From NCBI GenBank assembly GCA_001939945.1, contig MOEB01000043.1, positions 1-35,388 on the forward strand: a stretch of 35,388 nt of DNA, written 5' to 3'. The DNA is from Aerophototrophica crusticola (GTDB taxonomy: Bacteria > Pseudomonadota > Alphaproteobacteria > Azospirillales > Azospirillaceae). The notes below the pieces were generated by a model. That model saw nothing but the letters and a program-made list of their open reading frames with translations, had not been told where the DNA came from and did not search any database. Of the stretch, positions 881 through 3,338 are shown piece after piece (within the stretch, counting starts at the first letter, position 1; each line of letters starts with the position of its first letter). The position numbers and the translations under genes were made by a program.

Positions 881-2254
881 TCAATGCCCCGGATGGGCGC
901 CCTTGTCCGGGCCGACGGTCACCTTCAGCCGCATGGTCGGGTGGATGTTGCAGACGGCGGTATACTCGCCCGGAGCCTTGAAAGGAACGGAGACGGATTG
1001 GCCCGGGTCCTGGAGGCCGCTGTCATAGTCCATGGATGGCGCGAACACCCGGATGTTGTGGGCGCGGCTGTCGTCGTTGTGGATCACCAGGGTGCCCCCG
1101 GGCTTCAGGGCCACGGATTTGGCGCTGAAGGCCTTGTCCCGCTGGGTCACCTCCACCCGATCCTGGGCCTTGGGACCGTGGTCGTGGCCCTTGGGGGCCG
1201 GCAGGGTCAAGGCAGCCAGCACCGGCGCGGTGTCCTGTGGCCGGTCGCTGTCCAGGGTCTTGAGGAAGGCCAGCAGGTCGGCCTTCTCCTGGGCGGACAG
1301 CACCAGCTTGCGCGGCAGTTCCGGGGCCAGGGTGGGGCGTTCCACCTCGCGGCCGGCATAGTGGTCGATCACCGCCTCCAGCGTCGCTAGTGACCCATCA
1401 TGCATGTAGGGGGCGTGGCGGCCCACCTCCCGCAGGGTGGGGGTCTTCCAGGCGTTCTCCAGCCGCGGCTGGCCCAGCACCCCGCCCCGGCCCGGACCCG
1501 TGCCGGGCAGGCCGATGTCATAGAAGGCGTGGTCGGTGAAGGCCCAACCGCTGTGGCAGGCGGCGCACTGGGCCTTGCCGGTGAACAGGGCGAAGCCGCG
1601 CTTGGCGGCCTCCGGCACCGCCGTCTCGTCCCCCGCGGCCCAGCGGTCGAAGGGCGTCTCCGGGCTGACCAGGGTGCGTTCGAAGGTGGCGAGGGCCTTG
1701 GCGAGGTTGTCCAGGGTCACGCCCGGGGCCTCCGGGAAGGCGGCGGCGAACTGGGCGGGATACTCCGGGTCGGCGGCCAGCTCCGCCGGCAGGGCGGCCA
1801 GATCCTGGGCCATCTCCACCGGGTTGGCGATGGGGCCGGTGGCCTGGGCTTCCAGGCTGGGGGCGCGCCCGTCCCAGAACAGGGTCGGCGCCCAGGCCAG
1901 GTTCCACAGGGTGGGTGTATGGCGGGGCGCCTGCTGGCCCTTTTCCCCCACCGCCAGCACCTTGCCGTCGCCGAAGCCCAGCGACGGGTCGTGGCAACTG
2001 GCGCAGGACATGGTGTCGCCGCCGGACAGGCGGGGGTCGTGGAACAGCCGCTCCCCCAGCTCATGCTTGGCGCGGCTATAGGGGTTGTCGGCCGGGAAGG
2101 GGATGCCCTCGGCGGGCTGGCGGTAGGCGGCGGGGTCGGTGGGGATGGGCGCCTTGGCCACGGGACCCGCAGGCTGGTGCTGGCCGGCCGCGATGCCCGC
2201 CGCGGCCACCACCATCCCGGCCAGCAGGGCCGATCCGATGACGCCTCTCCCCAT
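881..2254 (-). CDS. di-heme cytochrome c peroxidase/MauG-like enzyme fused to an amicyanin-like cupredoxin
   Basis: The 457-residue protein begins with a hydrophobic export signal (about residues 5-24). It has a two-heme peroxidase region with heme-attachment motifs CASCH (84-88) and CAACH (230-234) and the family motif APYMHDGS (281-288). After a His-rich linker (GHDHG, 357-361) comes a single cupredoxin domain (about 368-457) with type-1 copper ligands H399, C435, H438 and M441 in the spacing C-x2-H-x2-M, as in amicyanin. Peroxidases and MauG of this family use H2O2 or high-valent iron in the periplasm and normally take electrons from a separate small cytochrome or blue copper protein; here the likely electron partner is covalently attached (inference). 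It lies 18 bases after the His-rich protein gene, with a GGGGGAG ribosome site in the gap, so the two form an operon. Its physiological substrate cannot be told from sequence. Confidence 0.88.
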   Translation of the reverse strand: MGRGVIGSALLAGMVVAAAGIAAGQHQPAGPVAKAPIPTDPAAYRQPAEGIPFPADNPYSRAKHELGERLFHDPRLSGGDTMSCASCHDPSLGFGDGKVLAVGEKGQQAPRHTPTLWNLAWAPTLFWDGRAPSLEAQATGPIANPVEMAQDLAALPAELAADPEYPAQFAAAFPEAPGVTLDNLAKALATFERTLVSPETPFDRWAAGDETAVPEAAKRGFALFTGKAQCAACHSGWAFTDHAFYDIGLPGTGPGRGGVLGQPRLENAWKTPTLREVGRHAPYMHDGSLATLEAVIDHYAGREVERPTLAPELPRKLVLSAQEKADLLAFLKTLDSDRPQDTAPVLAALTLPAPKGHDHGPKAQDRVEVTQRDKAFSAKSVALKPGGTLVIHNDDSRAHNIRVFAPSMDYDSGLQDPGQSVSVPFKAPGEYTAVCNIHPTMRLKVTVGPDKGAHPGH

Positions 2255-2272: not shown

Positions 2273-3091
2273 TTACTTCAGCCGGCTGGCGGCCAGTTCC
2301 AGCCTGGAGACCAGGGCCGCCACCTCGGACGGGTCGGTGGCCTTGCCAGTGCCGGGGACCGGTGTCGGCCAGACTTGGGCCAGGGCGGACAAGGTGGTCG
2401 TGAAGCTTTCCGCCGCCGCGGCGTCCTTGGCCTTCAGGGCCGGGGCGAGGCTGTCGCCCCATTGGCGGGCGACGGTATAGAAGCCGCGGCCGTCCTGGTA
2501 TTCCACCGGGGCGACGATGCGGCCCTGCTCGATGGCGGCGGCATATTCCGCAGCGGCGGTCTTCAGCACGGAGGTCAGCACCGGCAGCAGGAAGGCGGGC
2601 CGGTTGCGGTCCGCCGGCAGGGTGGCCTCGGCCTTGGCGATGGCGGCCTCCGCCGCATCCAGGGCCTGGGACACCTCCGCGGCCGGGGCCTTCGCCTTGG
2701 CCTTGGCGACGGTGGCGTCGAGCTGGGGACGGAAGCCGGCCTTGCGCTTGTCCAGCTCGGCGGCGATGCCGTCATAGATCTCCTCGGACGGGTGCAGGAA
2801 ATGGGGCAGGGCGTCGCTCGCCTTGCCCGCCGCATAGAGTTCCCGCGCGATGGACAGGTGGCCGCGGACCAGGGCCAGGTTGCCGGCCAGCTGCTGGTCG
2901 GCCGACAGGCTGGAGAAGGCGCCGGCCTCCCCGCCCTCACCCCCCTCGCCGCCTTCGCCACCCTCGCCGCCCTGGGCCTGGGTGGCGGCATGGCCATGGC
3001 CGCCGTGGGTTTCCGTCGCCAGGGCCGGGGCCGCGCCCAGGGTCACGGCCAGCCCCACACCCACCCACAGCTTGGTCGTCGTCCGCAGCAT
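2273..3091 (-). CDS. exported His/Gly-Glu-rich protein, partner of the di-heme enzyme
   Basis: This 272-residue protein has a clear signal peptide (residues 1-25, ending ALA). The mature N-terminus is metal-binding in character: HGGHGH at 29-34, then four to five GGE repeats (41-57). The rest is predicted all-helical, Ala-rich and charged. Near residue 97 it carries HFLHPSEEIY (H97, H100, E103, E104), an HxxE-like pattern loosely reminiscent of imelysin/EfeO iron-binding proteins; I cannot assign it to that family from sequence alone. It is first in the operon, preceded by a good ribosome site (GGAGGG, 10 bases before ATG) and by a promoter overlapped by a Fur-like box. Context and composition suggest a periplasmic iron- or copper-handling protein working with the downstream enzyme (inference). 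Confidence 0.75.
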   Translation of the reverse strand: MLRTTTKLWVGVGLAVTLGAAPALATETHGGHGHAATQAQGGEGGEGGEGGEGGEAGAFSSLSADQQLAGNLALVRGHLSIARELYAAGKASDALPHFLHPSEEIYDGIAAELDKRKAGFRPQLDATVAKAKAKAPAAEVSQALDAAEAAIAKAEATLPADRNRPAFLLPVLTSVLKTAAAEYAAAIEQGRIVAPVEYQDGRGFYTVARQWGDSLAPALKAKDAAAAESFTTTLSALAQVWPTPVPGTGKATDPSEVAALVSRLELAASRLK

Positions 3092-3125: not shown

Positions 3126-3157
3126 TGCGAATTAATCGCAAGCGGAAGGCCCGACAA
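3126..3157 (-). promoter_or_regulatory. promoter with overlapping Fur-like operator
   Basis: Reading the minus strand, TTGTCG (3157-3152), a 17-base spacer and TAATTC (3134-3129) resemble -35 and -10 elements. Overlapping the -10 is TGCGAAT-T-AATCGCA on the plus strand (3126-3140), a 7-1-7 inverted repeat with one mismatched pair, the layout of Fur-type boxes. It ends 35 bases before the ATG of the His-rich protein gene. Iron-dependent repression is the natural prediction. Confidence 0.5.
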
Positions 3158-3191: not shown

Positions 3192-3225
3192 CAGGCCTGT
3201 TTCCAGCTGACTGGAAACAGGCCTG
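3192..3225. repeat. perfect 15-bp inverted repeat
   Basis: Arms at 3192-3206 and 3211-3225 pair perfectly around the loop CTGA. It is one of three perfect palindromes in the 200-bp space between the Fur-box promoter and greB. No T-run follows on either strand, so a simple intrinsic terminator is not obvious. Confidence 0.8.
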
Positions 3226-3311: not shown

Positions 3312-3338
3312 GCGTGTTTACGGTCACCGTAAACACGC
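3312..3338. repeat. perfect 13-bp inverted repeat directly after greB
   Basis: GCGTGTTTACGGT (3312-3324) and ACCGTAAACACGC (3326-3338) flank one central base. It starts one base after the greB stop codon, so on the minus strand it would fold at the end of the greB message and may stop transcription or protect the 3' end. No U-tract is present. Confidence 0.8.

Follow-up and report, generated by a model that had tools for sequence, protein, structure and literature searches.

What does a MauG-like enzyme that carries its own copper domain act on, and under which conditions is it made? These questions are raised by one reading frame in a 35,388-nt stretch of Aerophototrophica crusticola DNA (contig MOEB01000043.1, assembly GCA_001939945.1), called the window below. 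To our knowledge, many MauG-like enzymes lack a known substrate; the enzyme analyzed here, P0001, is tied to one candidate partner, P0002, and to apparent iron control, which makes its substrate testable. The features used in the argument are these.

881..2254, minus strand: fused enzyme P0001, reading frame of 457 aa plus stop
1991..2005, minus strand: haem motif CASCH, P0001 residues 84-88
1553..1567, minus strand: haem motif CAACH, P0001 residues 230-234
1814..1876, minus strand: W127, Q137, P141 and E147 of P0001, from the alignment of fused proteins
1358..1360, minus strand: Tyr299 of P0001, from the alignment
914..1186, minus strand: cupredoxin domain of P0001, from Pfam, alignment and a PDB profile search
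1058-1060, 950-952, 941-943 and 932-934, minus strand: copper ligands H399, C435, H438 and M441
2273..3091, minus strand: P0002, 272 aa, with a signal-like N-terminus, a Gly/Glu-rich stretch and an all-helical domain
3126..3140, no strand assigned: putative Fur-type operator, reading TGCGATTAATTCGCA and lying 49 bp upstream of the P0002 start codon

A di-haem enzyme joined to a cupredoxin

P0001 comprises a signal-like N-terminus, a CCP_MauG/di-haem domain (residues ~62-334), a linker and a cupredoxin (~357-447), and Pfam support for a MauG/CCP di-haem enzyme and a C-terminal cupredoxin in one protein is well above chance. Its matches to CCP_MauG (1e-58) and Cytochrom_C (5.5e-7) both exceed the curated cut-offs, and the copper half matches Cupredoxin_1 at 28.6 bits (cut-off 27) and Copper-bind at 25.3 bits (cut-off 21.2). 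An earlier note on this DNA had proposed such a fusion, and the finding of CCP_MauG plus Copper-bind/Cupredoxin_1 in a single 457-aa protein bears it out; both CxxCH motifs and the four copper ligands lie at the residues it named, and the C-x2-H-x2-M loop spacing is, as it held, that of amicyanin in a mau cluster (CTPHPFM). The linker, which it called His-rich, does contain some His (KGHDHGPK), but the enrichment is mild.

The residues H399, C435, H438 and M441 are invariant in 11/11 aligned fused proteins, and C-x2-H-x2-M is present in 22 of the 23 trimmed fused domains, the other one (L042) lacking an inner stretch but keeping the motif in its longer alignment row. By sequence, a Pfam cupredoxin match together with His-Cys-His-Met ligands marks this as a putative type 1 copper cupredoxin. 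When a profile of nine copper domains (eight fused, one unfused) was searched against the PDB, it matched copper nitrite reductase (5.5e-14), and also amicyanins (best 4.3e-9) and plastocyanins. The AlphaFold model of P0001 is poor (mean pLDDT 60), with a weakly modeled enzyme half and a C-terminal part of seven strands (block values of 77-89 over residues 361-450), and the best 50 Foldseek matches to this model are all di-haem proteins; the cupredoxin fold therefore rests on Pfam, the PDB profile search and the seven predicted strands.

A MauG-cupredoxin fusion is not named among the titles and abstract openings listed from a collection with few subscription journals. In operons for methanethiol oxidase, a MauG domain is fused to SCO1, a copper protein (PMC5739008); like P0001, that protein joins a MauG domain to a copper-protein domain, but it has SCO1 rather than a cupredoxin, and its partner and context differ. 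MauG-like domains also lie within far longer frames (~670-1030 aa) in Vibrio, Aeromonas, Chromobacterium and their relatives (L069-L086, L092, L094, L096). One further sequence (L194, from genome G390) has a MauG-like domain joined to the start of a cupredoxin, followed by apparent loss of frame, and could be either another fusion or a pair of genes that has suffered damage; its cupredoxin match is weak and covers just residues 377-411, and it was rejected as a second kind of fusion and excluded from the fused group.

The MauG branch and its unfused cupredoxins

In a tree of 103 sequences the 23 fused ones form one group (support 99/89), which is consistent with a single origin of the fusion. 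This group lies inside a clade of 62 (100/99) that also holds three mau-cluster MauG sequences (two of them identical) and 14 other unfused sequences, all 17 of them with a cupredoxin-like gene downstream (L182 and L186 doubtful), plus 22 that lack such a gene; outside the clade lies the classical CCP paralogue from A. crusticola. Duplicate fused sequences (L038, L047, L063), other near-copies, the short pieces L093 and L109 and, except for the classical CCP paralogue, matches weaker than 1e-40 were omitted from this tree, in which L194 was labeled 'none'.

The di-haem half also resembles MauG in sequence. P0001 residues 44-337 are 49.5% identical to Methylobacterium DM1 MauG; W127, Q137, P141 and E147 are invariant in 11/11 aligned fused proteins, and the spacing of the last three matches that of MauG Q103, P107 and E113 (numbering from PDB titles). 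W127 would correspond to MauG W93. Tyr299 occupies the position of the axial Met on the electron-transfer haem of classical peroxidases and, by alignment range, that of Tyr294 on the six-coordinate haem of MauG; Tyr is found there in 26/26 fused sequences (three of them duplicates), 18/18 sequences from unfused pairs and 66/80 others, the remainder having Met (13) or a gap (1). Met-His ligation in classical CCPs versus Tyr-His ligation in MauG is a known difference (PMC6405878), and at this position P0001 has Tyr whereas the CCP paralogue (L007) has Met.

P0001 could be a MauG-MauL fusion that has been relocated but continues to mature a TTQ enzyme. TTQ_mauG is its best NCBIfam match, and in two mau clusters the gene after mauG, at the mauL position, is cupredoxin-like. 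However, the score of 308.6 bits is under the equivalog cut-off of 443.85, and the methylamine dehydrogenase small subunit (PF02975) has no match in this genome, which is rated 99.99% complete, and is present in only one of the 14 genomes with the fusion (6/81 family genomes are positive). TTQ maturation is thus largely contradicted, and we consider this explanation very improbable. P0001 and MauG share a di-haem domain, its pocket residues, a Tyr in the axial position and a supported clade, but P0001 differs in its fused cupredoxin, its partner, its iron-type operator, a score below the family cut-off and a genome in which no mauA was found.

The copper half had been linked to amicyanin in the earlier note, a link that is not supported: P0001 scores 22.5 bits on the NCBIfam amicyanin model (cut-off 110.2), its domain is nearer to unfused cupredoxins, and the genome has no small-subunit match. 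Scored with a model built from the fused domains, 12 of 15 cupredoxins that neighbor unfused, non-mau MauG-like genes reach 54-89 bits (the others score 47, 23 and 14, and the neighbors of L186 at 23 bits and L182 at 14 bits may not be true pairs). The same model gives 55 and 30 bits for the cupredoxin-like proteins encoded directly after mauG in two mau clusters, which have Ile at the place of the Met ligand, and 35 bits for DM1 amicyanin. From these comparisons, the copper half resembles cupredoxins encoded directly after MauG-like genes more than it does amicyanin.

The A. crusticola genome contains an unfused counterpart of the fusion, a second locus at which a MauG-like gene is followed, 24 bp on, by a distinct cupredoxin gene whose product begins with a signal-like sequence. 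Such unfused pairs suggest that a cupredoxin is a common redox partner of P0001's MauG branch, mau-cluster MauGs included. On the Methylobacterium DM1 plasmid, the mau cluster has between mauG and a napG-named gene a cupredoxin-like ORF (L107:8929-9273) that the listed annotation lacks; it retains the His, Cys and His, with Ile replacing Met.

It is also possible that P0001 is a self-contained periplasmic peroxidase, in which the cupredoxin passes electrons to the di-haem center so that H2O2 is removed in iron-starved cells, with P0002 serving as a metal buffer or docking protein. The invariant pocket residues shared with MauG (11/11) would fit such an activity, as would the ability of Tyr-ligated BthA to reduce H2O2 (PMC6405878). 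Nevertheless, Tyr replaces the Met of classical peroxidases, the genome already encodes a Met-type CCP paralogue, with no iron-type box in the 300 bp upstream of it, and the tie to P0002 would be left unexplained; a peroxidase role of this kind seems quite unlikely.

The candidate partner P0002

The P0002 gene precedes the fused enzyme gene by 18 bp. A P0002 homologue adjoins the fused gene in 15 of the 23 distinct sequences (14/22 without L106), with a gap of ~0.8 kb in L014, and lies elsewhere in the genome for the other eight, so P0002 is present in every genome with a fused sequence. The frequency of the fusion, which the earlier note had proposed to survey, was found to be 14/82 in family genomes (one match spanning both domains; G054 is counted as fusion-free despite a masked stretch, and masked stretches are possible in other genomes) and 3/372 in a class sample, where at most four candidates were scored per genome. 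Close P0002 homologues (E<1e-60) occur in 14/81 family genomes, the very 14 with the fusion; the next best match is at 4.9e-35, and seven more family genomes have distant P0002 relatives alone (E 4.9e-35 or weaker). An urn model gives 5e-16 for identical sets of fusion and P0002 genomes, a value that takes no account of kinship, although within two genera some genomes are positive and others negative. In the class sample, P0002 at E<1e-60 is found in 3/385 genomes, and the best three matches are the three fusion genomes. The suggestion that the co-encoded protein is a partner is therefore strongly supported by co-occurrence across genomes.

Among 20 neighbor proteins scanned, none recurs beyond the enzyme/P0002 pair, a permease or iron gene included; the exceptions, an M20 peptidase in three Roseomonas loci and DctP in three MAG loci, reflect the likeness of close relatives. 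The downstream membrane protein P0003 has no relative among the loci compared.

The predicted model of P0002 is all-helical with a confident core. The description of this protein as His-rich was overstated (6 His in 272 residues), and a Pfam search found no match, PF09375 included. By Foldseek, its fold is only weakly similar to that of EfeM (E 0.57), but this lead toward an imelysin is unsupported, with an hhalign probability of 0.1-0.3% against 31 M75 proteins that all came from one seed and among which EfeM-type proteins may be missing.

When the 22 partner sequences are set against 25 distant P0002 relatives (some near-copies in both sets), two classes of residues can be distinguished. H78, H100, E104, Y183, Y198 and D200 are invariant in partners and present in 21-24 of the 25 distant relatives. 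Other positions mark the partners: E103 is found in 22/22 partners versus 1/25 distant relatives, with distant counts of 1/25 for L99, 3/25 for F167, 11/25 for H97, 10/25 for E182, 8/25 for E197 and 6/25 for E265. HxxE was rejected as a P0002 motif on the count for E103; the shared pair is H100/E104. No Trp of mature P0002 is invariant among the 22 partner sequences (W241 is in 15/22), which speaks against the known MauG-type products; the sole invariant Trp, W9, sits in the signal-like N-terminus. Residues 9-13 there form a W-x-G-x-G pattern that seems unusual for a cleaved signal (partners/distant relatives: W9 22/19, G11 22/20, G13 21/17).

These data bear on a further alternative, in which enzyme and P0002 form an MbnH/MbnP- or SACCP/MopE-like pair and the enzyme converts a P0002 residue, making a copper site. 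In MopE the conversion is of Trp to kynurenine. The partner gene is placed beside a MauG-like gene in both known systems (PMC3621798); the two-gene layout seen here is the same, a MauG-like enzyme being encoded beside a dedicated partner. In addition, P0001 scores 222.8 bits on the MbnH NCBIfam model, and the cupredoxin supplies a copper theme. On the other hand, this score is under the MbnH cut-off of 362.85, and the same paper reports well-conserved Trp residues in mature MbnP and a response of SACCP/MopE-type genes to copper, whereas the enzyme/P0002 pair has no invariant mature Trp, an iron-type operator and a fused cupredoxin. We regard this alternative as unlikely, though deserving of consideration.

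A putative iron-type operator and a possible mechanism

A putative iron-type operator upstream of the pair had gone unnoticed in the earlier note. The site TGCGATTAATTCGCA was first spotted by eye upstream of P0002, so it is no independent test in itself; a matrix built without it finds 3126-3140 as the sole match scoring at least 12 in the window. With up to two mismatches allowed, the pattern TGCGAATNATTCGCA has 10 matches across the 6.06 Mb of the genome, and the reversed control has none. Seven of these sites adjoin, by Pfam names, four TonB receptors, one solute-binding protein, aconitase and the enzyme/P0002 operon; the other three are near a DUF1289 protein (at ~470 bp), one protein that is nitrate-reductase-delta-like and one frame that Pfam does not match. 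From its likeness to Fur sites and from the neighboring genes, we take the motif TGCGATTAATTCGCA/TGCGAATNATTCGCA to be a Fur box; as in a Fur regulon, it is common to the enzyme/P0002 operon and iron genes of the same genome. Aconitase is among the predicted Fur targets in Gluconacetobacter (PMC9368920).

The box precedes P0002 in 16 of 23 loci (15/22 without L106), with no more than 1 of 500 shuffles for any of them; start codons were chosen by script, so distances shift and boxes do not. Loci with the box are those of Azospirillaceae and two others, and the seven without it (L039-L043, L045, L046) come from Roseomonas, Hyphomicrobiales-type MAGs and one MAG labeled Gammaproteobacteria. Where the fused gene lies away from P0002, it has its own box in 8/8 cases (seven at 0/500 shuffles, and L013 weaker at 3/500), and in most of these P0002 has one as well. 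Distant P0002 relatives have the box in 16/25 cases, at no more than 2 of 200 shuffles, and TonB receptors are near some of them (L170, L173, L179, part of L148). Background matches scoring at least 16 number nine in 180 kb (mostly M75 loci), eight of which are positioned a short way ahead of a match to imelysin (M75), and imelysin genes are Fur-controlled in other bacteria (PMC3143127). No box was found in the 300 bp upstream of the unfused MauG-like/cupredoxin locus of the same genome.

Iron-controlled operons for a helical periplasmic protein and a haem peroxidase are known from EfeO/EfeB, in which EfeO carries a cupredoxin domain, and from imelysin with a di-haem DUF1111 protein (PMC3143127, PMC9174327). 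The enzyme/P0002 pair resembles them in layout and control, but its cupredoxin is on the enzyme, the enzyme is of MauG type and P0002 is not detectably an imelysin. An Efe (EfeUOB) system was rejected for lack of an FTR1-type permease match in the genome; such a match is found in 3/14 fusion genomes, leaving 11/14 without. The pair departs from each analogue tested in at least one defining feature, which makes it a variant rather than a member.

With a Tyr-type MauG-like domain, type 1 copper ligands, co-occurrence with P0002 and an iron-type operator in most family loci and two others, we propose that the two proteins make up a periplasmic redox pair under iron control, whose copper-wired enzyme would act on P0002 or its metal, a reading that we hold at about even chances. 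The two-gene periplasmic module would be induced under iron scarcity; H2O2 (or O2 plus electrons) would bring the di-haem center into a high-valent, bis-Fe(IV)-like state, and the cupredoxin would serve as a built-in one-electron wire. The target would be a P0002 site of conserved His, Glu, Asp and Tyr residues (H78, H100, E104, Y183, Y198 and D200), with the partner-specific H97, E103, E182 and E197. Either a residue of this site would be oxidized, Tyr more likely than Trp, or a P0002-held metal would be oxidized, so that P0002 binds, carries or releases iron. The narrower version, that under iron starvation the enzyme installs a Tyr-based rather than Trp-based cofactor or an oxidized metal site in a dedicated helical iron-binding partner, and thus modifies a protein in the service of iron supply, is tentative and on balance improbable. 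A MauG-type enzyme that is induced by iron shortage and has its own copper domain would represent an unrecognized use of such chemistry and, should P0002 prove to be an iron protein, the roles of high-valent di-haem chemistry would extend beyond amine and methane metabolism.

Several minor observations concern P0002 relatives and the region upstream of P0002. In the A. crusticola genome, a TonB-dependent receptor is immediately followed by a shortened protein distantly related to P0002 (L179:5008-5514). Among the P0002 loci that lack the Fur-type box, an Irr-type box is good in L039 (2 mismatches, 0/500 shuffles), fair in L042 (3 mismatches, 9/500) and absent from L043, L046 and the three Roseomonas loci. 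Those Roseomonas loci (L040, L041, L045) have in common TGCAAACGATCATCG, which lies 42 bp upstream of where P0002 starts, has a low matrix score and may be the site of another regulator. In the window, two long inverted repeats (3193-3224 and 3314-3336) lie between the upstream gene and P0002.
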